From NCBI GenBank assembly GCA_019914995.1, contig CM034142.1:1612001-1676000 (forward strand): a DNA stretch of 64,000 nucleotides, in the 5' to 3' direction. Below, piece after piece: positions 7,725 to 53,904 of this stretch; the stretch's first letter is position 1, and each line of letters opens with the position of its first letter. This stretch comes from Acanthochlamys bracteata. Its lineage: Eukaryota; Streptophyta; Magnoliopsida; Pandanales; Velloziaceae. The position numbers were made by a program, and so were the translations under genes. The notes under the pieces are model-generated. The model made no database searches and had not been told where the DNA came from. It worked only from the letters and a program-made list of their open reading frames with translations.

Positions 7725-8693
7725 TCAGAAATCTTTGAGCAGTTTGCGAACCTGCTCGAGTGTAACGAACAGAACAACAGTGAACGGTCCTTGCCTTGAG
7801 ACAGTAGGAATAAAACCTTTGTACAGCGACATCGGTCCTTCAGCCTTCACGGTCTTCAACGCGCAATCTATCGCGCCGGCATACGGCGGCGGAACGCCGG
7901 GTTCAACCTTCATATTCATCACCCTTGTCTTCACCACATCAATCGGATTCGAAGCCACTGCGGCTACCAATCCGGCAGTAAAGCTAGCTCCAACATGTGT
8001 ACCGAGCCCGTCCGCAGCGCCGGCGTTGATCATCGTCTCTTTAGCTTGATCGTAAGTAGCCAGCTGCGCAGCAGTAACGATCATAGCGCGATTGACGGTG
8101 AGTGAAGATCCACGCCATAAGCTAGCAATCCCTTCGTCTTTTGCCATTCGAGAGATCGCATCGACGACGCTCTTGTAATTCCGGCGTTGATTCACCGGTA
8201 ATCTTCCGTCAGCTTGCATTCGAACCATAGCAACATCAGCAGGGTTCCCTACGGCCGCACCGACGCCTCCGGCGAGCAAACCAGCACATATCTTCTTTTG
8301 CAGGGGCAACGAATTGTTCGAATTCGACCACTTGGTTTTCAGAATATCGTATAAGCCCATTCGAGTAGTCGAGTAAAGAGTTTGCCGGAGAACCGTCGCT
8401 GAGACGCCGGAGAACAGAGCAGCAACACCTTCAGATCTCAGAATCTGTGCTCCGACAGCGATAGGCCCAGGCCGGCGAACGACGACTGTAGTTGCCGGGA
8501 TTTCCATTGTAGCGTTTACTGTTGCGGAGTTTTGAAAAGCTAATGCCGGTCGTAAAGCCGCCGTCGCCGGCGCCGGAACTGGTGAAATTTCTCCTTGCAG
8601 CTGCATACGAACTTTGATTAGATCTAGTGGGTGCGTTGAACACCCTGCAACGATCGATGCGATCCCTCCTTCAACAAATCCCTTCATCCCCAT
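7725..8693 (-). CDS. DIC1: Mitochondrial dicarboxylate carrier (uncoupling-protein 5 type), 322 aa, intronless
   Basis: A single-exon member of the mitochondrial carrier family, expected in the inner mitochondrial membrane exchanging dicarboxylates such as malate for phosphate or other dicarboxylates (established for plant DIC/UCP5 proteins). Start chosen at the ATG at 8693, giving MGMKGFVEGGIASIVAGC. The longer open frame upstream begins with TTG, and plant homologues begin with MG(L/M)KGF. The three carrier repeats each show the signature: THPLDLIKVRMQLQGE near residue 20, NPADVAMVRMQADGR mid-protein and NPIDVVKTRVMNMKV in the third repeat. Conserved LRQTLYSTTRMGLYD and a C-terminal TVVLFVTLEQVRKLLKDF are present. 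Length and end match the family, and no defects are seen. A leader and promoter are expected just above 8693 on the minus strand. Confidence 0.95.
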   Translation of the reverse strand: MGMKGFVEGGIASIVAGCSTHPLDLIKVRMQLQGEISPVPAPATAALRPALAFQNSATVNATMEIPATTVVVRRPGPIAVGAQILRSEGVAALFSGVSATVLRQTLYSTTRMGLYDILKTKWSNSNNSLPLQKKICAGLLAGGVGAAVGNPADVAMVRMQADGRLPVNQRRNYKSVVDAISRMAKDEGIASLWRGSSLTVNRAMIVTAAQLATYDQAKETMINAGAADGLGTHVGASFTAGLVAAVASNPIDVVKTRVMNMKVEPGVPPPYAGAIDCALKTVKAEGPMSLYKGFIPTVSRQGPFTVVLFVTLEQVRKLLKDF

Positions 8694-11600
8694 TATTCCA
8701 AATTTATTTCGATTCAAAAACTGAAATCAATCAAATTAAAAAAGAACGAAAGAAAACAAAATTGTTCAATCGATCAACTAATTTATTGGTCGATCGATTG
8801 AGGAACAACTAGAACTAATAAAACTGCTAATACCAGTTGGAATTAGAGTTCATCTCAGAGGAAACCAAGAGATGAGAATGAATGCCAAAGGCGATAGAAG
8901 ATGAATGGGGAGCGATTGATCTCTGAGACATAAACAAGGTCGAAGATTTCTATTAAAAGAAATAATAATCAATTTGTTGATGTTCAAGAAGAGGGATTGT
9001 GAAGGTACTTATAGGGTTTGCAGAAGTGAATCAGATTCATGAAGGAAAGAAGAAGGAAAGATGGAAAGAGTTCGGGTCTGGGGAAGGTTTGATTCGAATT
9101 CGCTTTTCCTGCTTAGTTTCTTTCCGAATTCATTCACCGAATTGTACCATCCGATACTTTACCTAACATACAAAATGGCATAGCAGTAAATATGTAGAAT
9201 TAATTGTCTGTGTTTGTTCGGTTTAGTTTCGGGATGGTTACGTCGGGAGTAATTAAAGAGACTGACAGCGTCAGTAGCGCGGCGGTGAAGTAAAACGCGG
9301 AGGAAGACCAGGGTTTTGCCCTAACCGACGGAAACGTATAAAACAACGTTGGATTATAAGAAAGAGGAAATGGACGGATAGGATTGAGCCGGAATTGCAT
9401 TGTATTTTTGTTTTATTTAATTATAGGGCTTTCATGAAATTATGGAGAGTTTGAAAGGTGGAGGCGTATGGTTGGATGTCTGGAAGGAATAGTTTGCAAT
9501 ATTGATCTATGTAGATAACTTTATTGCATGATAAAGCATATAATATTGGTTTAGCATGCTAATAATACTTTTGGCGTAACAACCTACGCAACAATACTAG
9601 TTCATATTCTTTAAGAAAAGTTGTATTAAAGTATTTTCCACGAGGTCAGAGGGGGTGGTAATTAATATTTTTTAACTCATTTCTTTTTCAAAAATTTTGT
9701 TTTTAACGTAATTTTAAATAAAATTAAATACAATTAATAATCAATTTTTGTAAATTTTAACTTTTATTTAACAAATTACTTTTAGTAATAAATAAATATA
9801 AAAAATGATATTTTTAAATTTTTTTCTTTTAAATAATTTATTTTTAAAATTTTAGTAAAAGTTCAACGTTTGGCATTGATTTTTAGTAAAGTAAGTTCTT
9901 TATTTTTTATTTGATTTTGTTAAATACATTTTTTATAAATATATGAAAAGTTTATTTAAAAATTTAAAAATATATAAAAATTTAATATAGTAAAATTTAA
10001 TAAAGTCTTACTTTAAAATTTTATTTTAAAATTAATTGGAAAAGTTCGAAGTGGACTTATTCAACTTTTTTTATATAGAAATTTAATTCAACAAATTAAA
10101 CTAACGACCGTACACTTCCTCTTTGTAAACGTGTACATTTAAAAATTGTAGAAGTTGTTTTGAAGAAAGTATCAAAGCTGGAGATGTTTATATTATTTTC
10201 ACACTTTCGTCATTGAATTGAGTAAGAATTTAGTTGACTATTCTGAAGTGAAGTTTTGAAAAATAATTTTTATAGAAAACAGATTTAAAAATAAGTTCAA
10301 ATTTATATATATGTCATCGTATTTGAAAAACTAAATAAAGAAATAATTTTATTTATAGAAAAAGTGAAGTTGAAATTAATTAAAATAAAACGTTTTTGTA
10401 AGGATGATTTATCACGCGTTGCGCTGTTGGTGACAACAATGCAACAGCTACGTATTGAAGCCACCAAGAAATGTGGGGCGTTTAGAAGAATTTATAAAAA
10501 ATAATTTTATTTTATTTTAAAAAACAAATACGTTTTATAATAATACTAAGTTTTATTGGAAATTGTTTTATATTTTTAAATTATAAATAAATTTTATAAA
10601 ATATTTTAAAAATCATTAAAAAATAAAATTTAAAAAAATAAAAAGTATTTTTAGAATCGCACTCCGAAACGCCGCATCATGAATGGAACTGAACTTTGAG
10701 AAAGTAAAATACATTGCTGATCAATGCGTTTACTTCACGGCTAAATTAAATTGCTTAAAACGCGTTCTTTTTCTTTTTCTTTTCTTACTTAAAGCAGAGC
10801 TGACAAATTTTGAAAATTAAAGTAATCACTTTTTGAGAAGAAAGAGCTGGCGACAACTAATAACTTCTTTTATTTAACTAATTGGGTTTTAAAAATTAGT
10901 TCTTAATATGCGGTAGCAGTATTTATAAGAAAATATATCATTTTTAGAGAAATTATTCGATACAAAATGAATTAAATTAGTCTCGCGTAAAATAAAAAAA
11001 ATTTATATTCAAGAATTTTATTGACATAATTCGAAACGATCACTCCAAGAATCATTAAGTAAGGGATGTCACGGAAAATTTCTCCCAGTAACTATAGATA
11101 ATATGTACTTTTTAAGGTTGTCGTCACATTTTGTTTCTCATAAAATTCTTAAAATAATCATCTTACGAAAATTAATGTACATAATCTTATGTTAATAGTA
11201 CTCTAGCAATGTCTTTACTTCGGAATAAAAAGTGAGTTTCACATAAACTTTTATCTTAACAAATTACTTTCGAATATTTCACTTTTGAATCAATTCCTGC
11301 AAGTAAATAAGTTCTAAAGAAAAAAAATAACAAAAAGAGTATGTTTAAGAGAATATTTAGTGGCACTCATTTTTTATTCACCAAAAGTTTTTACTTTTAT
11401 AATAACTTTTTTATAGAATATTGTAAAATTTTTTAAAATTTGAAATATATAGGTGACTTATATATCTTATATTATTTACATGTATAATTTTATTATTTTT
11501 AAAAACAATTAAACGCGTTTTCAGAATAAATTTCTAAAATATGTTTATTAATAATTTTTTTTGTCATAACCAGTCCTATCTCGTAAAATACTCTCTGGCG

Positions 11601-15257: not shown

Positions 15258-17769
15258 CTAACCATTATCGTCTTCACTTGTGTCTTCGTCTTCCGCATCA
15301 TCTGTACCGGTAACTGTAAAGTAAAAAGAGTAATGACCAATGTCAAGAAAAATGTTTGAATTCCTCTATGAAAGTTAGTAAACAATGAATCAAAACTAAG
15401 TAAATAACTATACTTACTTGTCTTTTTTTTGTATTTGAATCTTCAGGACAATTTTGTTTGTCATGTTTAACACCGGACTTATTACAGTAAGCACATCTTC
15501 TATCTGTTTTCGCTTTCGCTCTCGCAGTGGCTTTTTCCAAACCTTCTTTTATTCGAGTACTACTCTTGCAAACCCTCCCTTCTTTGTTTCTTCCCTTTGT
15601 TTGTGAGATGTTGGGATTCAAAAGTAAAACCTGAGAGGTCTCAATATGATCTCCTAAGCTCTCATCGATAGTACATGGATTGTCAACTGAAATCTTATCC
15701 TGATCGTTAGTCTTTCTTACTTCTTTGAGCCCTTGTGAAGCCTCTTGTAATTTTTGCAACATCAATTGGTATCCATCGTTGGTTTCCGCCGCTTCATAAA
15801 CCAATTGGTTGAAGACCATTTGGAGATGAGTAGTTCTCAGTAGCTCCGCATTCTCATGGCTATTTATAGGTCCACTCATACTTAGCTCTATATTTATTAG
15901 CTCCATTCCTCCACCGCTGAAGAATAAAATGATTTGGTATCTCTAAATCTCAACTTGAAAAATCTTCATCAGGTGTCCACAAGGAATTCCCATAAATTTA
16001 AAAAGTTTACATTCACAATTACCTTCCTTTGTGACTGAGTTAAACTTCACCTTCCACTCACGCTGATCACCTTCAACTCGAGACTTATAAATATAAGTTG
16101 TATATCTATCACTACCCCTTTCATCATCATGCAAAACATACTCAGATTGAGCTTTCTCAAATTCTTTTTTGAACTTATCCTACACATTTCTTGTATATGC
16201 ATTTGCTGCACTTTCAAGACATGAATTTCCTTCTACAATGCGGGACAAATGTTCACTAGTGTAATCCTCTTTCTTTTTATTTTTAACAAGTTTCTTCAAA
16301 CACTTGTCATTATTCACGACAAACTCTCAAAGAGTTGTTGTTGGTTTGAAAAAACTTCTATAAATAGCATTCATACCTTCGAATCGCCCTGTAGTATTCA
16401 TACCGGCATAGAAAGTATTCAAGTGATAGACTGGTGCCCATTTTTCTCGAATCTCATATATTCCTTTAAGCCATTCATTATCTTGCAACTCATATGTAGA
16501 CATCAATTTCTCCCACTTTGATTCAAAAGTGTTAGAAATATAACTTTTCCGAATACACCTCTTGATGTCCCTTTTGAATTTAGAGCTCTTGAAATAAACA
16601 TGGGAAAGTTTCTCAGGTAATTTCTTCAATATATGCCATAGACAAAATCTATGTCGGTTATTTGAAAATACCTTCGCAACAGCTGCAGTAATAGCTTTGT
16701 CTTGATCTGTAATGATTGAAAATAGAACACGCCCGTCCATAGCTGCAAGCCATGTCTCAAACAGTCATTCAAAAGACTCTTCAGTCTCATCTAAAAGTAG
16801 TGCACAACCAAATTGGATTGACTGCATATGATGGTTAATCCTAGTAAATAGCGCAAATGGCATTGCATATATATTCTTGCGGTAGGTGGTATCAAAAAAT
16901 ATTACATCACCAAAATACTGAAATTGAGTACGCGAACGACCATCTACCCAGAAAAAATTTATTGCTCTAGCGTTGCTGTCCATTTGTATTGCATAAAAAA
17001 AATTTGAATCTTCTATACTCTTCTTTTCAAAAAACTTAAGCGCTACTGTAGCATCACCACTAATAGATCTCTTGTACTCTTTCGAGGAACACAAGTGGTT
17101 CCAGCAATCTCTGCTATCAAAACTATTTTGCGATCTTTCAAATATATCTGCAACCTTACTCACAGGTATGTCTTCTTCTCGAAACGAGTCAATCAAACTC
17201 TTAACTGTAATAGGAATATTTCTGCAAACAAGCATGCGCATTCTTTTTGCAAGACTAACTAGGACGTGATTGTGATCACCTTTATAACCTACCACTTTCC
17301 ACAATCCACTAGCTTGTCTTTTCACTCTCATTCTTGCAGGACAGCCACATTTCGATGTACTTGTGCTTATCTTCTTCTGTACTTTTTTTTCGAAATCGTT
17401 GTCTGTCTTTTGTGATGAATGACCTCTGTGATTTCCAAAATGGGAACAAATCATTTCACAAGTACTCACTTGATATGAATGAGCAATTTTTTTTTGTGTA
17501 TTTCGAGTAACGGCCCTAAATTCTTCCGCTTTTTCATAATTTATGTAAAATTTTTTTGCAGCTTTGAGACATACAAATGTCATCCCTAAATAAGGTGATT
17601 TGAGATTCTCTTCTACTACGTTTGGAGTTGGAGAAGAAGGACCGACCTCGAAATCTAAAAGATGCACCAAAATAAAAAATAAGCAACAAAAATTAAATCC
17701 AATATTGAATTGAAAAGAACACCATAAATTTGATGCCTAAAAAAAAAAACCTCTAAACTCTTGAACCAT
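15258..17769 (-). pseudogene. MULE-1 transposase (FAR1 DNA-binding, MULE DDE, SWIM and zinc-knuckle domains), interrupted
   Basis: Cut-and-paste transposase of the FHY3/FAR1-related MULE group. Exon 1 is tiny: ATG at 17769 to the donor at 17750 (MVQEFR). A GT-AG intron leads to exon 2 from 17654 down to about 15418, and exon 3 (15313-15258) encodes an acidic tail. Domains in order are a FAR1-type N-terminus (GMTFVCLKAAKKFYINY, then CGCPARMRVKR and GDHNHVLV), the DDE catalytic core (FFDTTYRKN, ITDQDKAI, GRFEGMNAIYR), a SWIM zinc finger (CECKLFKFMGIPCGHL) and a zinc knuckle (CAYCNKSGVKHDKQNC). Breaks are TGA at 16765-16767 in place of the TGG kept in MULE-2, TGA at 16327-16329, TAG at 16180-16182, and a stop plus frame change around 15905-15945. 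Otherwise nearly complete. Confidence 0.85.
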
Positions 17770-21411: not shown

Positions 21412-22275
21412 TTAACGGAACCTGATAGCTATTTCGTTCACCAACTCAGAAGCATTTTCAGCATTCAACATCTTTATCACAAATTCTCCTTGATCAGTTC
21501 TTCCCTGAGAGTTGTTTCCATCATCAAGCGAATTATAATTCATGAACAACAAGCAGAATAACTCAGCCGTAATATTTGAAATGTGTTTCATCTTATTCCA
21601 TTGCTTCACAGACTGATCACGAAATAAATCTACAATGCTGTTTTGTTGCTTTCTCTCATCCTCTTCCACTACTGTGAGAAGTCTCCGACCCACATTGCCT
21701 CCTGCAATCTTCTTCAACGCAACGATTGTAGGTCCAAGCTTTTGTACATAAACAATCCTGTAGTTCGACGGAATGTGCAACAGTTCTTGACCAAGGCAAA
21801 CGGCAACAATTCCACCGACCTTGAGCACCTGCTCGATAAATCCAAATCCATAACTTGCCCCAGGTTCACCAGCCATGAAAACAAAGTCAACCATTTGGTC
21901 AGGAAACTTAATTTTGGTGCCTTCCTTCACAAGTTCCATACATTCTCCATCAAAGAACTCCATGTCCCAACCAAATTTACCGAGCAGCAAGGCATGATCA
22001 CCAGGCTTAATAAGCCCATAGCGCCGCATATCGACCGTCATCTCCTTTGAAAACAACCTCCCGGCTGCTGAACCGTCTAAACTATCAACCAAATCATCAG
22101 ACAATACAAACGCATTTCTTTCAACAGCCGCAAGGATCCATGGGAAAGAAATCACCGCCGCAAACAGTAGCACCGATCGTGCGACGAGCCGGAGCAGCCG
22201 GCCTTCAGGAAACCGAATCACTACACGCCCGGCGCTTACTTCGATCGAACCAATCAAGGCACTAGCCAAATCCAT
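21412..22275 (-). CDS. Plant methyltransferase-like protein with N-terminal membrane segment (At3g53400/At5g03190-like), 287 aa
   Basis: Start chosen at ATG 22275 (MDLASALIGSIEVSAGRVV). The longer open frame above it begins with TTG. A hydrophobic segment (LLRLVARSVLLFAAVISFPW) around residues 27-46 predicts one membrane anchor. The soluble part has LLLGKFGWDMEFFDGECMEL, FPDQMVDFVFMAGEPGASYG and VLKVGGIVAVCLG, which look like a diverged SAM-methyltransferase fold (glycine loop, acidic strand, VLKPGG-type strand). I associate it from memory with the Arabidopsis loci whose leaders carry a conserved peptide uORF (CPuORF46/47 group). The enzymatic substrate is unknown. The leader carries the uORF at 22501-22611, so translation is probably repressed by it. 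No defects are seen. Confidence 0.65.
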   Translation of the reverse strand: MDLASALIGSIEVSAGRVVIRFPEGRLLRLVARSVLLFAAVISFPWILAAVERNAFVLSDDLVDSLDGSAAGRLFSKEMTVDMRRYGLIKPGDHALLLGKFGWDMEFFDGECMELVKEGTKIKFPDQMVDFVFMAGEPGASYGFGFIEQVLKVGGIVAVCLGQELLHIPSNYRIVYVQKLGPTIVALKKIAGGNVGRRLLTVVEEDERKQQNSIVDLFRDQSVKQWNKMKHISNITAELFCLLFMNYNSLDDGNNSQGRTDQGEFVIKMLNAENASELVNEIAIRFR

Positions 22276-22500
22276 CTTCCAAAATCGATGAAATATGCAA
22301 CCTTTCAACACCCCTTTCTTGTTGCAAAGTACCAATCTTTCGAAGGCTCGAATCAATTATGTGAATTCTTGCGTGCCGAGAACAGTTTTGTTTGTTGCGA
22401 TTTGCAACCCTCGAATTGTTCGCAGAGGGATTGAAAATTTTCAATCCGAGTAAGAATTGACTGAAAAATATTCAACAACAACGAGATAAAGTGAAGAAAT

Positions 22501-22611
22501 TTAGCGAGTGCAGAACCTGGCAGCGGTGTGGTTGCCGCCGACGAGAGCAGAGCGCGTAGAACGTGTTCTTGTCCAGAGAAGAAGCAGATCTAACATTCTC
22601 CGGCGATCCAT
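22501..22611 (-). CDS. Candidate conserved peptide upstream ORF in the leader of the methyltransferase-like gene, 36 aa
   Basis: ATG at 22611-22609, stop TAA at 22503-22501, 226 bases before the main start at 22275. The peptide starts MDRRRMLDLLLLW and ends with SALVGGNHTAARFCTR just before the stop. A C-terminal block ending at the stop is typical of ribosome-stalling uORFs. The family to which I assign the main ORF is known for a conserved uORF, but I have not compared residues. A potential donor (CAG/GTTCTG) lies inside its last codons, with an acceptor TTTTTCAG near 22473. Splicing there would replace the end and run the frame past the main ATG, so alternative splicing could switch the regulation. 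Confidence 0.5.
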   Translation of the reverse strand: MDRRRMLDLLLLWTRTRSTRSALVGGNHTAARFCTR

Positions 22612-22619
22612 TATTTTCA

Positions 22620-23770
22620 CTCGCCCAAATTCCAATCAGCAGAAGTAGAGCAACATGAACCAGATCTAGCACAACAAGAAGAAGAGATCACATTAACAAT
22701 TTTTCTTGTTTCTAGGGAGAATTTTTTGTTGAATGTTTCTTGAGAAATTTTTGAGAGAAGATTAGATTTTTGTTTGATGTACGGGTTTCAGAAAGCGTGA
22801 ATTTAGTGTGTAGTACTGGGTTTTAAAGGAGGAAGTAAGTGTAGAACTGAAAGAAAATAGGATTGGAATTTAAAAATTTTTTTAGAAGTAAGTTTGAAAA
22901 ATAAAGTTAATAAAAAATAAGTTATAAAATTAGTTATCGAAAGTGAGTCTGTTTACTCTTAAGAAAAACTTTAGCATATTATTCGGCACAAATACCATAC
23001 AAATTACAATAATAATTGGACGCTTGATTAATTACGCCATTAATTTTAAGAAATCTTCGATTAAGTATAGTTAAATCGATTTTTATGAGTGTTTATAAAA
23101 TATATTTTTTAAAAATAAAAGTACTTTATTTTATTTTAAAAATTATTTTTAAAAATAATATAATTAAATATAAATAAACGTCAATATTTATATTAATAAT
23201 AAATTTTATAAGTTATTATAAAAATTTTATTATAAAATAAATTGAAAACGCGGCATCTAAAAAATATTTGTGAATCTTTTTAAATCGCTCGAATTAGAAA
23301 TGCATTTACAATACAAATCCTTAATTTATTATTATTTATTGGTTATAGTAGCCTTGTTTCTCTTGCGGACTAATGCAATTAGGCAGTAGGCTTTTTCGGC
23401 CATACTGTAAAACCATACAATGAAATTTAATTTGGGATCATATTTTACTTTAAAAGTTGTACAAACGTTTTATATTAATGAATCGAGATCCAAACACTTG
23501 AATTAATAAAAAATTATTCTTACAATTATAATATATTCTAACATGTACTTCTTTTATAAATCTATATATTTGATCCAAATACGAGATTTACCATATAAGA
23601 GCTATTACAACAGTACAGCACATCACATTGAACGAAGTAATAGAACAATGAATTTGGAAGAACATCGTCACGAGGCAGAAGGTACCCAATTTGTTTCCAT
23701 CCATCAAATTAAACATTCAATCAGTGAAACCAACTTTTCCAATTCTAGCGAAGAAGAAGATTGAGAGCAG
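22620..23770. other. Promoter side of the methyltransferase-like gene and AT-rich spacer
   Basis: From 22620 to about 22870 lies the rest of the minus-strand leader and proximal promoter. Beyond that the DNA is AT-rich with poly-A/poly-T tracts typical of decayed MITEs. The open frame at 23543-23764 starts without a recognisable context and has no domain. Its 3' half abuts the last exon of the minus-strand gene ending at 23775 and may be antisense 3' UTR. Confidence 0.45.
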
Positions 23771-28854: not shown

Positions 28855-30018
28855 CTAATTTGCAAACTTCCCTGAACAAGCAGAAACATAAAATTCTTCA
28901 AGTTCAGGAAGCACTTCCTTATGTGGGCGTATAAACTTCTCAATGAACTTCTCATTTTTCATGTTAATGGCAGAAGACAAGATCCTTTCTGAGAGCATAT
29001 TGGCAATTTTCAAAACATAGACACGTGGAATTAACCGACTCTTTAAGCTGTAGGTAAAAAGATGTCCATGAGAAGCTACATAAGAGATGCTCAAACCAGC
29101 TTCTTTAGTCAAGAAATCAATAGTTCTCCGCAACTTTTCTTCTGATAACCTTATAATGATAGGGTTCTTGCAAATTGCAGCGAGAGCCTCATCCTCCGAC
29201 AACCCATAGCTCCTCCACAGCTGCAGCTGAGACTTGAGTTTGGCCACACTAGTGCATGATATGGACGCCAATGCCTGGAAATACATGCTAGACCCAGGAG
29301 GGAGCCGCAATGCTTCGACTCGCTTGATAACAACTTTAACATTGTCCGTGCTCCTCGTAAGAAGATTGGGACGTGCCACGAGCAAGCTTTGAAGCTTACG
29401 ATCACAGATTCCACAATTCCTTAGTAACGAGACATTCGGCAATATCTTGTTACTAAGACTGCTGGTGAAGAGATACCTACACCTTCCACTAGCTTTCAAT
29501 ATGTTTTTGTTGCTTCCAAAAATGTCTTTAAAAGATTCCATCTTGGACCTCGAGTCTACCCTAAGAATGCATGGGCTTGCTGCGACCAGCTCAATGATCT
29601 CTGATGCCGAGTACCCCATTTCCTCCAGAACATTGAATTTTGGCTTCAGAGTCCTTTCAATTCCCTTGCAGAGAATCTTGGGGTTATCAAGAATAACTCT
29701 AGCAATATTCGCATCCCTGAATCCATAATCCTTCAAGAAACCAAGAACGGCATCTGGTTTCAAAGGGGATTGAATGTGGGCAATCAGCTTACTGGCCTTG
29801 AGAGCTTCTTGTGAAGACAACCCACAAGAATTAATCAAGTAATTCGCTATATTGAAATCGGAGCTGGGAATTAGGGTTTGCTCTGTTTTTGCTAATTTTC
29901 TTGTTGTGGAAGTGGAGAAGGTGAGAATGCTTCTGATCCAATGGTGTGAAGAAGACGAAGAAGAACAAAGAATAGATTGTGTTCTTGAACACAGCTTGTT
30001 CTTCACAAGAAAGAACAT
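28855..30018 (-). CDS. mTERF-domain organellar protein, 387 aa, intact, intronless
   Basis: Mitochondrial transcription termination factor family protein, expected in mitochondria or plastids to bind nucleic acid and affect organelle gene expression (family knowledge). ATG at 30018. The first 45 or so residues are serine-rich and basic with few acids (SILCSSSSSSHHWIRSILTF), as in an organelle transit peptide. The body from about residue 53 has repeated helical mTERF motifs: SPLKPDAVLGFLKDYGF, then NPKILCKGIERTLKPKFNVL, ARPNLLTRSTDNV, and near the end KEAGLSISYVASHGHLF and LIPRVYVLKI, the usual C-terminal signature. No stops. It is a paralogue of 44754-45938 and of the pseudogenes between them, but in the opposite orientation. 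Confidence 0.93.
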   Translation of the reverse strand: MFFLVKNKLCSRTQSILCSSSSSSHHWIRSILTFSTSTTRKLAKTEQTLIPSSDFNIANYLINSCGLSSQEALKASKLIAHIQSPLKPDAVLGFLKDYGFRDANIARVILDNPKILCKGIERTLKPKFNVLEEMGYSASEIIELVAASPCILRVDSRSKMESFKDIFGSNKNILKASGRCRYLFTSSLSNKILPNVSLLRNCGICDRKLQSLLVARPNLLTRSTDNVKVVIKRVEALRLPPGSSMYFQALASISCTSVAKLKSQLQLWRSYGLSEDEALAAICKNPIIIRLSEEKLRRTIDFLTKEAGLSISYVASHGHLFTYSLKSRLIPRVYVLKIANMLSERILSSAINMKNEKFIEKFIRPHKEVLPELEEFYVSACSGKFAN

Positions 30019-31470
30019 CTTGGATTAGATTCTAAAAAACAGTTTCCACCACAGTAGAAGAAATTGTTGATACCTGCACCGGAGAATGGATTTCCATTAC
30101 CACAAGAAGCATTTATTAACTTCAGAGCGATCAATCAATTCTGTCTCTGCTTGAAAGCAATGGAATAATGAAACTTACAAATTTCTTCAAATGAATGATT
30201 GAAACACAAATTTGGGTTGAGGGTTTTGCAATAGGTTGTAATCATTTTTTGGGGGGTTGGCAATTGGGTTAACAAGTTTGAGTATGAATCGATTTATTAT
30301 TGATTATTCGGTTCAAAATTATTTTAATTATAAATATTTATATAGAATAAAATTATTAATTCTAATCTAATTTATTTATAAATTTGATGAATCTATTTAA
30401 TAATTAAAATTATTAGAATAAAATATAAAATTAATTTTTAATTAGGTATTATATATTAAAAAATTAATTTTGATAAATTTTATAAATTAAATTAGAAATT
30501 AATAAAAATATGATAAACTAAAAAAATATATTTTTAATAAACTTAAATGCAATGTCATTATTTTTAATATTTTTAATATTAGATAACATATATTACACAA
30601 ATAATTATATAAATTAAATGGATTAATTTAGGACGATCCGAACCTGATTAAAATCAAGTTCGAATTCAATTTAAGTAGGTCAATTTCGGTTCGTATTCGA
30701 AAGTCGGATCAAATATTGCTAACTCTAATTTTGTTCAAAAAGGTCTCATTCTCTCAAAAAATTTATTAAAATAATATTTAAATTAAAAGATAATATATAT
30801 ATATATGAAAAAATATATAATTTATATATCGTTTATTATATTAAAGATTAACATATTTATTTTAGTTTATAAATCGTTCTACTATCCTTAAATGTGTTAA
30901 AATAATTATTTTATTGAAATATACGTATAAAATATTTATTAAAAATATATTTTTTATTTTTTATTTTTTATTTTAGGAAACAGATTTTTTAGTTTACTAA
31001 TTTTTAAATCATCAAAACGAGCTTTTATCCAGAAGAGATAAAGAATAGATAGATGTTCGAAGTTTTATTAGCTCGTCCTGTGTCTAAACTCAAACACGAT
31101 ATTTCATTCCAATAGCCTAGTCCTTGTCGGTTTAGTACCTACGGAATTTAATTTTACACCCAGATTGTAGAGACTACTACGTTTGAGCCCATTATTAAGG
31201 ATCGGACCCGGTCCCAACTCTTTTTTACTCTTCTACCTAAGTGGGGAAGCAAGCCTGTGTTCAAATTTCAAATTCAACTGATAATTTTCTAAACCAGTAG
31301 GTACAAAAGTTCATTTAATTCATAGATGGATTGATAGTCATTGAGTATTAGTGGTTCCTTTCATAGTTTCTTCTTTGTTCGATTCGAGAATCTATAATTT
31401 GTTCTTATCATTAAAGATGAGAATTGTGCTTCTTCCATAGTTTTAGGTTTTCCATTTTTCTCAAGAATCG
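30019..31470. other. mTERF promoter side and AT-rich spacer
   Basis: About 200 bases above the ATG at 30018 probably form the leader and promoter of the minus-strand mTERF gene. Then follow a TGGCAA-family repeat (30251-30729), AT-rich filler with a (TA)n tract near 30790, and a GC-richer stretch at about 31060-31300 that I cannot assign. From about 31380 the sequence begins to resemble the upstream flank of an mTERF copy. Confidence 0.45.
30251..30729. repeat. TGGCAA-family MITE-like element upstream of the mTERF gene
   Basis: The left end GGGGGGTTGGCAATTGGGTT lies at about 30251 and the right end ATCAAATATTGCTAACTCTAA at about 30709-30729. The right end reverse-complements to TTAGAGTTAGCAATATTTGA, an inverted partner of the left end. 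The interior shows the same order as other members: GATCG/GGTTC words at both sides and AT-rich middle. It sits about 230 bases upstream of the mTERF ATG. Confidence 0.5.
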
Positions 31471-36784: not shown

Positions 36785-37205
36785 CTCTATCAAAGATAAA
36801 TATATGGGTCAAGTCGGCCCGATAAACAGTTTGGATAACAACCCGCATGGCTCATGAACAGTGATCCGATTGAGCCTATAACCCGCTCTATCAGACAGTA
36901 TAAAACGCTTTGTCGACCCAACGAGCAATTTGCCTGTTTAGTTATTGTACAAGTTAATCGATTAATATTGATCAGAACTGTTGCTTTGATCAATATTAGT
37001 AGTTGATCATTCAGCATAAATAAAAAAATTAAGATAATTTTTTTTTCAAAAATATAAAATAATGGTCATGATTACATTAGCATGCTCATTGAGTCTTTTG
37101 TTATTATAAAAAAAAACAAAACTGAGGTAGACAAACAGTTACGACCGGATAAAAAAGTTAGCGATTGAGCCAAATCGTTTCAATCCGATTTGCAGGGCCG
37201 TCCGT
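36785..37205. repeat. Diverged repeat nested near the right end of the PIF-like transposon
   Basis: GC-richer words such as GGGTCAAGTCGGCCCG, CCGATTGAGCC and CAATCCGATTTGCAGGGCCG appear abruptly inside the AT-rich transposon end. On both sides CACTACTCTC and TTACTCTCCAATTCCATTACTC are adjoining parts of the PIF-like end, so this is a secondary insertion. Exact ends are uncertain. Confidence 0.35.
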
Positions 37206-38319
37206 TTTTGCACTTTTATTACTCTCCAATTCCATTACTCTTGTATCTCAGTACAAATAGAGTCTTATCGTCCTTCTCAGCCTTTGATCAAAACCCTTCT
37301 CTCATTCTTAACCACCACAACAACAAAAGCAACAAAATCAAAGAAAACCCTAATTATAAATTTTGATTTTAATATAGTGAATTACTTGATACATTCTTCT
37401 AGGTTGTCTTTACAACAAGCTCTCAGGCTAGTAGACCAATTTCCCACATTAAATCCCCTTTCAAGCCCAACACTGTTCTCAATTTCTCGAGATTCGGATC
37501 GATCCAAAAGAACTCTGGAGTGATCTGCATGGATCCTGACAAGAGCCTCAAGATATAGATATATTGAGTAAATGGGATTCTAATTCGCAGGTTCTCGATG
37601 TGGTTACGGTGAACCTTTTTGCTATCAGGATGAAAATCAGGCCCAAGATTGAGTTTTGGAGAAGCATTCTCAGAAGCAATGCGAATATACTGAATCATAC
37701 AGAAGGAATAGTTATATCTTTCCTGTAATCTCAGTGAGCGATTAATGCCAAGTTTAACAGTTTTGAGGCAGTGTGGATTCTCTGCTTCCTAGATTTATAT
37801 GGTCTTGGCAAGCTCCAGGCTCATTACTAGGAAAACGGAGGTTATCAAGGCATTGCATTAGGTCTAAGATGTTCCCCCTTGCTCTGATGGGCCCGATTGG
37901 CAGTAGTAAGTCTAGTATCAATTCTAAGTTGCAGGTTGGAAGAATCTTGGGTTTCCGAGGCCGATGTTATGTCTGCAATTTGCAAGCACCCCACTCTTCT
38001 TGGGCTGTTAAATGAAGAATCCATAGAAAGGTGAAATTCTTAATGGAAGAAGGTGGTTGCAGCCAAACTTATATAGCTTCTCATCCAACTATGATTACTT
38101 ACAACCTAGAGAGGCGTGATTCCTCGCCTTCATGGTTTGAGAATCCCCAAATCAAAGAAGTTGGTGTTTGTGGAGATTAGTTTGTTACCTGTCATGTGTT
38201 TAAAAGAGCAGGAGTGCTTAGAGAAGTTTGTCCTCCCGCATAAAGAAACTATTCCTGGCCTTGAAGAGTTATATTGTGCTTCTTGTACTGCGAATGTTGC
38301 GAATCATGTGCCAATCTAA

Positions 38320-44594: not shown

Positions 44595-44753
44595 TCCCAA
44601 TCCAGGTTTTGCATTGTCTCGACCAGTTCTTTGTTTTTGCAAATTTACAATTTCCAGAACTCAATCCATCACCAGGTAAAACTGAAGTTGAAATTTTGCT
44701 TCTGTGTTGGAAATTTGCGATCTCTTCTATTTTTCGGTCACTCCAAATTCAAG

Positions 44754-45938
44754 ATGCTGTTGTTTCTTGTGAAGAAGAACAAGCTATTTTTTTCAAACCG
44801 CGCAACAATTTCAATTTCTTCTTCTTCTGCTTGTTCTTCACGCCAATTGATCAAAACACTTCTCTCATTCTCTACCACCACAACAACAAAAGCAACAAAA
44901 ACAGAGCAAATACTAGTTCTCAATTCAGATTTCAATATTATGAATTACTTGATTAATTCTTGCGGGTTGTCTTCAGAACAAGCTCTCAAGGCCAGTAAAA
45001 ACATTGCTCACCTTCAATCCCCTTCCAAGCCCGATGCCGTGATCAGTTTCCTTAAGGAACGTGGGTTTGGTGAAGCCGACATTGCCCAGTTCATTTGCAA
45101 GGTGCCCAAATTGCTATGCGTGGAGACTGAGAGAACTCTCAAGCCTAAATTCATGGTTCTGCAAGAAATGGGGTTCTCCCGTGATGAGATTGTCAAGCTG
45201 GTTTCAGCAAACCCGACTGTTGTCAAGACCAATTCCAGAGCCAAGATTGAATTTTGGAGAGGGATTCTTGGAAGTAATGAGAATTTACTGAGAGCCAATA
45301 GAAGAAATCATCATCTATACTCCAGCAGTATTGACGAGAGGCTGTTGCCGAATCTGTTGTTCATGAGGCAATGTGGAATCTCAGATAACCAGCTCAGACA
45401 TTTGCTCGTTGGAAGCCCTTGGTTTCTTACCCGGAGCATGGATAACATAAAAGCAATTGTTAAGCGAGCAGAAGCATTGGGAGTTCCTGTTGGGTCTAAA
45501 ATGTTCCACCAAGCCCTGTTGACCATGTCTTGCACTAGTGTGACCACATTTGATAATAAGATCCGATTCTGGAAGAGTTTAGGGTTTTCAGAGGCAGAGG
45601 TGCTCAATGCAATTCGTGGGAACCCTGTCCTTCTAAGGTTGTCAGAAGAGAAGCTCCAAAGGGTGGTAGAATACTTGATGAAAGAAGCTGGTTGCAGCCT
45701 AACGTATATAGCTTCTCATACTGGGCTCTTCCAATATAGCTTAGAGAGACGGTTGATTCCTCGTGTCTGTGTTTTGAAGATTCTCAAATCAAAGAATTTG
45801 CTACCTCGAGAATATAGTTTACTTCCTCTGATCTGTATGAGTAGTGCAAAATTCCTGAATAAGTTTGTCCTCCCACATAAAGAGAATGTAGCTGGTCTTG
45901 AAGAGTTATATCTTTCTGCTTGTTCAGGGGAAAGCTGA
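44754..45938 (+). CDS. mTERF-domain organellar protein, 394 aa, intact, intronless
   Basis: Start chosen at ATG 44754 (MLLFLVKKNKLFFSNRA), because the pseudogenes at 31474 and 33705 and the intact gene at 30018 begin in the same way (M followed by FFLVKNKL / LLFL). The longer open frame to 44631 would add residues not shared with paralogues. A Ser/Thr-rich, basic transit peptide of about 50 residues includes a run of five Thr. The mTERF repeats follow: PSKPDAVISFLKERGF, VPKLLCVETERTLKPKFMVL, GSPWFLTRSMDNIKAI, KEAGCSLTYIASHTGLF and LIPRVCVLKILKSKNLL, ending in LEELYLSACSGES. No defects. It is likely organelle-targeted and acts on organelle transcripts (family knowledge). It is the plus-strand parent-like copy for the pseudogenes to its left. 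Confidence 0.93.
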   Translation: MLLFLVKKNKLFFSNRATISISSSSACSSRQLIKTLLSFSTTTTTKATKTEQILVLNSDFNIMNYLINSCGLSSEQALKASKNIAHLQSPSKPDAVISFLKERGFGEADIAQFICKVPKLLCVETERTLKPKFMVLQEMGFSRDEIVKLVSANPTVVKTNSRAKIEFWRGILGSNENLLRANRRNHHLYSSSIDERLLPNLLFMRQCGISDNQLRHLLVGSPWFLTRSMDNIKAIVKRAEALGVPVGSKMFHQALLTMSCTSVTTFDNKIRFWKSLGFSEAEVLNAIRGNPVLLRLSEEKLQRVVEYLMKEAGCSLTYIASHTGLFQYSLERRLIPRVCVLKILKSKNLLPREYSLLPLICMSSAKFLNKFVLPHKENVAGLEELYLSACSGES

Positions 45939-51443: not shown

Positions 51444-53904
51444 ATGGCCGAAACAGAGGAGATTGGCTGTTCTGTTTCTACAACTCCGAACGTAATTATC
51501 GAAAAGGAAAAATCATTGTGCTTAAATATGATTTTTCCAAATCTTGAACAAGCAAAAGAAGCGTATATATATTATGGTAGAGCAACAGGATTTAGTGCGG
51601 TTATTCGAAGTACGCAAAAAAAAAAAGGATCGAATGAAATGATCAAATGTCTAATGACTTGTCAGCGTTTTGGAAGTTATAGAGATCATACAAGAAAGAA
51701 AACAGATGGAGAACCTGAGATACAAATTAATCCAAAAAGAAATAGAAATACAGTAAATGCGGGTGTCCAGCGAGCATAAAAGTGGCAAAATAACCAACTG
51801 GTCTTTGGAAGGTGATTCAGTATACCGACGAGCATAATCACAACATAATTAGTCCGTCAAAAAGAATGTGTATGTCCGTTTGTAGAAATATGCCCGCTGC
51901 TGCTAAAATATTGGTTGATTTATTTCGTGACGAAGGTATACCCGTTAACAAAGTTGTAGATATACTCGATGGATCACAATATCGTTTTGATGATAGAGAT
52001 TGCTGGAATCATTTGGGACCTTCGAAGGAATATAAGAAACCATTGTCAGGTGATGCAACCGCAGCTCTTGAATTTTTTTAAAAAAAGAGTATAGAAGATC
52101 CAAATTTTTTTTATATAATTTAGATGGACAGTGAAGCAAGGGCAATAAATTTTTTCTGGATAGACGGTCGATCACGCTTGTAGTATCAATATTTTGGTGA
52201 TGTGGTATTTTTCGACACAACATATCGTAAGAATGTGTATGAAATGTCTTTTGCACCGTTTACAGGAGTTAACCACCATATGCAATCGATTCAATTTGGC
52301 TGTGCTTTACTTCTGGATGAAACAGAGGAGTCATTTTATTGGGTTTTCGAGACCTGGCTTGCAGCAATGGATGGACGTGCCCTATCTTCTCTTATGACAG
52401 ATCAAGATAGAGCTATGATTGCAGCAATTGAGAAGGTATTTCCGAACACACGACATCGATTTTGCTTGTGGCAGGTGTTGAAAAAGTTTTCTGAAAAACT
52501 TCCACACATATATTTCAAGAAATCACGATTCAAAAAAGATATGAAAATATGTATTCGGGAAACTTATACGCCGAGTTTCTTTGAGATGAGATGGAAGGAA
52601 TTGCTATGTACATACAACTTGCAGGAGAACGAGTGGCTTCAAGGGATGTATGAAATTCGAAAAAAATGGATTCCAGCTTATCATTTCGACACTTTTTATG
52701 CCGGTATGAATACTACAGAACGCTCCGAAGTATGAATTCTATTTACGGTAATTTTTTTCACTCTACTACAACTCTTCGGAAGTTTGTAGTAAAAAATGAT
52801 AAATATTTGGCTAAAATTATCGAAAAAAAAAAAAAAGAGGATTATATTAATGAACATTCTAACCGTATTGTCAACAATCATGAATTCCTTCTGAAAAGTG
52901 CAGCAAAAGTATACATGAGAAATGTGTATGATAAGTTTAAAAAAGAATTCGAAAAAGCCTCAAGCTGAATATATGTTATATGATGATGTTAAGAGTAACG
53001 ATGGTTACACGACTTATATTTATAAGTCTCGGGTGCTGGGTGATGAGCGTAGGTGTACGGTGAAATTCAACCACGCCACAGAAGAAGGTTATTGTGAATG
53101 CAAACTGTTTGAGTTTGTAGAGATTTCTTGTGGACACCTTATAAAGATTTTTCAATCCCGTGATATGGAATTACCTAATCACTTCATTCTTAAAAGGTGG
53201 ATGAAAGGGGCTAATAAATATAGAGCTGAGTATGATGGTGGAGCAATATCAGGCCACGCAAATTCTGAGTTATTGAGGACTACCCAACTTTTGAAAATTT
53301 CCACACAGATATCGTATGAAGCTGGTGAAACAGATGCATCTTTTCAACTGATGTTGTAAACGTTACAAAAATTATCACTACAGATAAAGGAATTAAAGAA
53401 GACAAATGAAAGCACAGAAGACTATTTATGCATTGCCAAAGATAGCTCACAACTAACTGCCAATGCATCTCAAGTGCTACTCTTGAATCCCAACATTTCT
53501 CAAACAAAGGGAAGAAAAAAAGTTTGCAAGAATAGCGGTCGAATAAAAGGCGGCTTAGCAAAAACTATCGAAAAAGCCAAAGCAAAAATATGGAGGAGAT
53601 GTGCTTGTTGCTTGTTGTAAAAAAGTTGGTGTTAAATACGACAAACGGAATTGTCCTGACAATCCAAATAGAAAAAAGAAGATAAGTAAGTATACCGCTA
53701 CTGAATTTTTGATTTATAATGAACTTTCTTATAATAATTTATGTTAGTGTTTACATTCGTTAAATTTTTTTCTTGACAGTTATCGATAGTGATGCTGTTG
53801 AAGATAACGATGGAAACGATATTGAATCTATAAATACCACTGAAGACAAAGATAGCGATGATGAATTATCAACTGGTGATGATTTTGTACATGAATTTGT
53901 ATGA
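51444..53904 (+). pseudogene. MULE-2 transposase (FAR1-type, DDE, SWIM), decayed
   Basis: Homologue of the MULE-1 transposase. ATG at 51444 (MAETEEIGC). The FAR1-like N-terminus (LEQAKEAYIYYGRATGFSAV) is followed by a frameshift near 51755-51780. The frame resumes with DEHNHNI and CWNHLGPSKEYKKPLSGDA, a stop at about 52080, and stops at about 52123 and 52181. The DDE core follows: FFDTTYRKNVYEM, ESFYWVFETWLAAMDGRAL (intact where MULE-1 has a stop), MTDQDRAMI and NTTERSE, where a frameshift follows. The SWIM finger reads CECKLFEFVEISCGHL. Stop at 53357-53359; the zinc knuckle is degraded near 53600. A small last exon (53780-53904) after a GT-AG intron encodes an acidic tail. More damaged than MULE-1, so probably older or long silent. 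Confidence 0.8.

Follow-up and report, generated by a model that had tools for sequence, protein, structure and literature searches.

A probable HG17-type conserved-peptide uORF in the leader of a DUF7870-related gene of Acanthochlamys bracteata

Results

A 36-codon uORF precedes a 287-aa main ORF

The window analysed here is a stretch of 64,000 nucleotides of Acanthochlamys bracteata (contig CM034142.1, positions 1,612,001 to 1,676,000, assembly GCA_019914995.1). On its minus strand a short upstream open reading frame (uORF) precedes a main ORF, with the following features in window coordinates; paralogues are named by their contigs (C6, C8, C11, C9).

22501..22611, minus strand: probable conserved-peptide uORF (CPuORF) of HG17 type, 36 codons plus TAA; a related uORF is found in three more intact paralogues
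22504..22548, minus strand: conserved C-terminal block ALVGGNHTAARFCTR, the proposed stall-inducing part; all 15 residues match those of C6
22276..22500, minus strand: spacer from the uORF stop to the main AUG, 225 nt, free of ATG
21412..22275, minus strand: 287-aa main ORF, akin to a DUF7870 protein but itself with no detectable DUF7870 domain
22132..22188, minus strand: most hydrophobic stretch, main ORF residues 30-48, a possible membrane anchor (Kyte-Doolittle mean 2.06 over 19 residues)
22688..22693, minus strand: start-stop AUG-UGA 5' of the uORF, relevant only if the transcript extends that far
22636..22656, minus strand: six-codon uORF MLLYFC 5' of the CPuORF, relevant only if the transcript extends that far
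22515..22519, minus strand: weak donor-like CAG/GT in the R-F codons of the uORF; AG/GT present in one of four intact paralogues
22461..22468, minus strand: acceptor-like TTTTTCAG in the spacer, which would give a 56-nt intron
22082..22083, minus strand: weak in-frame AG inside the main ORF, picked for its frame, which would give a hypothetical 254-aa fusion

An earlier note on this DNA had described a 36-codon leader ORF ending in a compact block, and this ORF is real: read from the window on the minus strand (22611-22501), upstream of the 287-aa ORF, it encodes MDRRRMLDLLLLWTRTRSTRSALVGGNHTAARFCTR followed by a TAA stop, its C-terminus being the block SALVGGNHTAARFC, two further residues and the stop. 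The context of the upstream AUG (AAAATAATGG) is favourable, with A at –3 and G at +4; that of the main AUG is TGGAAGATGG. The first AUG after the uORF stop is the AUG of the 287-codon main ORF, and the corresponding spacers of the C6, C8 and C11 copies (137, 100 and 86 nt) are all free of ATG as well. The AUG-UGA and MLLYFC elements have no counterpart in the 250 nt that precede each of the other three uORFs, where the upstream AUGs are different ones. As a guess, a TTTAAA at 22827 would suit a leader long enough to hold both elements.

Taking 22800-22276 as the leader, an assumption from which the true transcript start may differ, we obtained an ORF of at least 36 codons in 951 of 2000 mononucleotide shuffles. 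The length of the uORF is therefore unremarkable, and its reality rests on conservation.

Elsewhere in the window we observed a mitochondrial carrier gene at 7728-8726 (minus strand; one open frame with three Mito_carr stretches, E 1.2e-62), two mTERF-family genes (PF02536) at 28858-30024 (minus strand, E 6.8e-35) and 44595-45935 (plus strand, E 3.2e-32), and a shorter mTERF-similar stretch, recognised by eye, near 37131-37523. MULE transposase pieces at 16330-17736 (minus strand) and 52184-52732 (plus strand), the first with a FAR1 DNA-binding domain, appear to be FAR1-like or Mutator-like copies.

Related uORFs precede related genes elsewhere in the genome

We searched the whole assembly (195.5 Mb, 557 contigs) with the main protein, with the uORF peptide and with the DUF7870 domain. 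The main protein recovered the window copy and a relative on C6 (33% identity over residues 9-220, E 3.7e-19). The places listed for the peptide were the window, C6 (E 3.7e-9), C9 (E 1.3e-4) and C8 (E 0.018), the C9 copy carrying an internal stop. DUF7870 gave at least ten matches at six places, corresponding to intact genes on C6, C8 and C11 and to fragments at three places on C9 and C17, the contig of the window. A fourth intact uORF, absent among the peptide matches listed, was recognised in the ORF list of the C11 leader. Because only the best candidates are scored in such searches, the family count is a lower bound.

In all four intact members found (window, C6, C8 and C11) the uORF precedes the main ORF and carries the signature L-x-G-x-NHT-x-ARFC-x-R-stop. 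The uORFs are 36, 36, 35 and 35 aa long, respectively, and end in ALVGGNHTAARFCTR (window and C6), SLIGANHTSARFCSR (C8) and PLIGANHTSARFCCR (C11), with TAA next in each. Counted by eye, 10 of the 15 C-terminal positions are invariant across the four, including three of the last four residues, which read FCTR in the window and C6, FCSR in C8 and FCCR in C11. TAA directly follows the conserved R in the four intact copies and also in the C9 relic (match C9:5051359-5051463). The relic has a stop at codon 4 of its uORF and at codon 13 of its main ORF, and of the ten positions that never vary among the intact copies it has changed two (T to I and C to F). The sequence behind it appears mobile-element-like by its motifs. 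A DUF7870 fragment with stops follows the relic at C9:5055730.

The main ORF lacks a recognisable domain

The proteins of the family differ in domain content. The C6 protein matches the Pfam family DUF7870 (E 2.9e-67), and the first 465 residues of the C8 protein match DUF7870 in two stretches (E 5.9e-21), FkbM (PF05050, E 1.3e-5) and Methyltransf_11 (E 2.8e-5). The window protein aligns to that of C6 over residues 10-220; its last 67 residues (21412-21615) have no significant C6 counterpart, one fragment scoring –3.0 bits. Judged by these profile comparisons, the DUF7870 domain of the window main ORF is absent or beyond recognition. Against Pfam the window protein gave no methyltransferase match, only a sub-threshold LolA hit (E 0.057). 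It had no match in NCBIfam, where C8 and C11 reach fkbM_fam below its cut-off, and nothing credible among PDB sequences (best E 1.5). The label 'methyltransferase-like' given to the gene by the earlier note is thus right for its relatives but unproven for the window copy, for which the support is indirect: the window protein is kin to C6, and C8 has the domains. The peak of hydrophobicity over 19 residues falls close to the N-terminus in each of the four proteins.

DUF7870 fragments also occur at C17:1682010-1682310 on the minus strand. They share contig and strand with the window gene, lie about 47 kb upstream of it, and follow sequence that appears retrotransposon-like by its motifs. They are perhaps the remains of a tandem copy, and may bear on the missing DUF7870 domain of the window gene.

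The C-terminus of the peptide is under purifying selection

We calculated Ka/Ks among the paralogues with Nei-Gojobori counts from our own script (30 comparisons, p values uncorrected). Between the window and C6, none of the last 15 residues is changed while eight of the 15 codons differ synonymously (pS 0.66, pN 0.03, Fisher p 1.9e-5), the single non-synonymous step in this comparison being an artefact of path averaging from AGG to CGT. C8 and C11 give a Ka/Ks of 0.13 over the whole uORF (p 4.7e-5). Over the last 15 codons, where sites are few, the ratios of the window to C8 (0.47, p 0.42) and to C11 (0.39, p 0.25) are not significant, and C6 compared with the same two copies gives lower ratios than the window does (p 0.0003 and 0.0017). 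The N-terminal 21 codons are constrained within the window/C6 pair and within the C8/C11 pair, and show no constraint between the two pairs.

We also compared the DNA of the leader regions with 200 shuffles for each of the six pairs of intact copies. The uORF exceeded all 200 shuffles in six of six pairs. The 150 nt upstream of it did so in none (C8-C11 came closest, with 1 of 200 shuffles reaching the observed value), and the spacer in one (C8-C11, three others being marginal with 5 or 6 of 200). C8-C11 was also the one pair in which the opening 300 nt of the main ORF did so. Except between C8 and C11, then, DNA conservation is higher in the uORF than at the start of the protein that it precedes.

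These results bear on whether the uORF is a chance ORF, or a segment conserved as DNA or RNA rather than as a peptide. Frames of this length are common in shuffled leaders, as seen above, but the residues are kept through synonymous changes, the same stop is used in four copies, and the flanks are mostly unconserved; in addition, the window holds no Rfam match at the gathering threshold. We consider this explanation extremely unlikely. Purifying selection among four intact paralogues, together with the features shared with HG17 that are set out below, supports the earlier note's view of a regulatory peptide uORF.

A second alternative is that the window copy is a recent pseudogene, with a uORF that has not yet decayed and a shortened main ORF that is useless. 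The missing DUF7870 domain means that the regulated gene may be decaying, and the DUF7870 fragments 47 kb away on the same contig point the same way. So does the broken C9 relative, which keeps a C-terminal uORF block much like that of the window (Ka/Ks 0.11, p 0.0028). The low ratio of this relic, which counts against the CPuORF reading, indicates that its decay is probably recent; the relic is a weak neutral control. Against a dying gene, 287 codons are open and align to C6 over residues 10-220, and the window uORF is intact with its last 15 residues identical to those of C6, whereas in the relic the uORF stops early and two invariant residues are gone. On balance we find a dying gene unlikely.

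The proposed splice switch in the leader has a weak donor

The earlier note had also proposed that an alternative intron within the leader removes the C-terminus of the peptide and so changes translational control. In the version that the signals allow, removal of a 56-nt intron (22516-22461) would drop the proposed stalling C-terminus and extend the uORF out of frame across the main AUG, shutting off the main ORF. Both signals are present, but the junctions fall at 22517 rather than 22528 and at 22460 rather than 22473, 11 and 13 nt away from where they had been placed. CAG/GT and a T-rich CAG exist. Among the 41 GTs from 250 nt 5' of the uORF to position 200 of the main ORF the donor comes third, and no acceptor in its region outscores the one proposed. 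The spliced frame does overrun the main ATG, as had been claimed: the joined ORF runs for 97 codons and ends at 22262, out of frame with the main ORF.

Several observations argue against this switch. The intron would be shorter than the reported plant minimum of 70-73 nt, although that lower limit is debated (PMC1626468, citing Goodall and Filipowicz 1990). The donor GTTCTG scores 0.8 of a possible 8.1 and has no consensus base at +3 to +6; the matrices behind these scores are approximate plant consensus frequencies, and serve only to rank sites. Of the four intact copies, one has AG/GT, and two have any GT within the R codon or where R meets F: C6 has CC/GT one base earlier than the window donor, and C8 and C11 have no GT there. 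A splice site can be read into the peptide itself, half of the synonymous codings of A-R-F-C (48 of 96) creating GT at that point and 16 of 96 AG/GT, so the donor could easily be a by-product of the peptide. The frame stayed open to the main AUG in 209 of 2000 dinucleotide shuffles of the spacer, and constitutive splicing is hard to reconcile with conservation of the last uORF residues. As drawn, with its 56-nt intron and a weak donor seen as AG/GT in one intact copy of four, the switch does not hold up; we judge it very unlikely, the leader signal being most likely a by-product of the R-F codons.

A fusion of uORF and main ORF has a precedent in the group

Another use of the same GT deserves consideration. 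In Arabidopsis, an EST of At5g03190 (DR353698) lacks the last four uORF residues and joins the rest of the uORF to the middle of the main ORF (PMC2075485), through a putative acceptor inside the main ORF (PMC9305500). The group was reclassified as aNT25 by Jorgensen and Dorantes-Acosta in 2012 (PMC3426882), while Takahashi et al. (2020) count At5g01710 and At5g03190 among genuine CPuORF genes with fused variants in addition (PMC7106846). By analogy, a minor transcript of the window gene could join the uORF minus its last four residues in frame to the body of the main ORF, replacing the hydrophobic N-terminus.

Beyond this precedent, the GT at 22516 would drop exactly FCTR, and the AG at 22083-22082 would give a fusion of 254 aa with a terminal stop only and the hydrophobic segment gone. 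The C6 gene could do the same, losing FCTR and fusing in frame, by way of a GT within its R codon and an acceptor that lies at main AUG +185 (score 4.6). However, the donors are weak (0.8 in the window, –4.3 in C6), as is the window acceptor (–1.1), and in-frame AGs are common by chance, that of the window having been selected because of its frame. Neither C8 nor C11 has a GT here, and a fused protein would not explain why the last residues and the stop are conserved. With such weak donors and an AG picked for its frame, the fusion is only a possibility in the window gene, and an improbable one. An aNT25-type fusion would nevertheless be compatible with the CPuORF reading.

Discussion

Our analysis identifies, in the leader of a DUF7870-related gene, an ORF with conservation at the peptide level, a stop position common to its paralogues and an AUG-free spacer before the main ORF. 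We conclude that it is very probably a conserved-peptide uORF of HG17 type, which would repress the main ORF through stalling by its C-terminus. According to the mechanism that we propose, scanning ribosomes would initiate at the uORF AUG, and the nascent C-terminus ALVGGNHTAARFCTR would slow or stall them at the uORF stop codon, so that few would reinitiate at the main AUG 225 nt downstream. The stalled mRNA may be exposed to nonsense-mediated decay, and certain stresses might ease the block and allow the main protein to be made, as in some Arabidopsis relatives. Repression, stop-codon stalling, decay and stress response are carried over to this gene from published work on Arabidopsis HG17. 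Splicing is dispensable for this mechanism and most likely has no regular part in the window gene.

The published work comprises the following. HG17 consists of CPuORF45-48 of Arabidopsis (At1g58120, At3g53400, At5g03190 and At5g01710) and OsCPuORF38 of rice (PMC2075485, PMC9305500), with uORFs of 36-45 aa and a conserved C-terminus. HG17 CPuORFs that are translated repress a reporter: in a cell-free system its output rises when the upstream AUG of the members examined is mutated, and C-terminal mutations of CPuORF47 relieve repression in vitro and show a non-significant trend in plants (PMC9305500). In the same report, the positions of PARE reads on CPuORF46 and CPuORF47 (–16 and –46) are consistent with ribosomes halted at the stop codon. 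Mannitol raises reporter output about 10-fold for CPuORF47 and about 1.7-fold for CPuORF46, heat raises that of CPuORF46 about 8.9-fold and not that of CPuORF47, and the rice member is described as responding to neither treatment (PMC9305500). At5g03190 expressed without its leader confers drought tolerance together with growth retardation (PMC9305500, Causier et al., 2022), At3g53400 has served as a model NMD target (PMC4417159), and the domains listed for At5g01710 are a type-11 methyltransferase and FkbM (PMC3426882). Since the CPuORF47 effect is only a trend in plants and unaccompanied by a heat response, and since the rice member is unresponsive, a stress response cannot be assumed for the window gene.

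A more speculative model would use the same peptide twice: as a stalling uORF in the unspliced mRNA, and as the N-terminus of a soluble, unrepressed, anchor-less isoform in a stress- or tissue-dependent transcript, the cassette now driving a protein that lacks DUF7870. We regard this combination as slightly less probable still than the fusion itself. If it were true, a dual-use switch would have persisted after the loss of part of its target.

Drought-like or heat stress is reported to lift the translational block exerted by some plant leader peptides, HG17 uORFs among them (PMC9305500). For such work, the four intact copies and the broken one described here are natural variants of the proposed stalling block, NHT-x-ARFC-x-R being kept in the intact copies while the relic has neither the T nor the C.

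The earlier note had pointed to this group by way of At3g53400 and At5g03190, and this assignment agrees with the length of the uORF, its conserved C-terminus and the purifying selection on it. The window uORF fits most of the testable features of HG17, a likeness judged from the published verbal descriptions of the group. Its 36 aa fall within the range of 36-45 aa, the C8 and C11 uORFs, at 35, being one below. HG17 follows the class I pattern of a conserved C-terminus of about 14 aa and a divergent N-terminus, and the window family is alike; the conserved uORF stop of HG17 is likewise common to the four intact copies here. The last four residues of the At5g03190 uORF were found to be perfectly conserved among group members (Hayden and Jorgensen, 2007, PMC2075485), whereas one of the four varies in our family. 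The methyltransferase and FkbM domains of At5g01710 are matched by the C8 relative of the window gene and not by the window protein. The window gene also departs from HG17 in its main ORF, which has no detectable DUF7870, and its spacer of 225 nt compares with 86-137 nt in its three relatives. As in the aNT25 of At5g03190.2 (PMC2075485, PMC3426882), the weak window GT lies where it would drop the last four uORF residues; in that transcript the acceptor lies in the main ORF and in frame, whereas the one put forward in the earlier note lies in the leader and shifts the frame. What is new here is likely a further HG17-type member in this plant, the class itself being already known, and what might go beyond the known systems is the shortened main ORF, together with the possible fusion that would remove the anchor.
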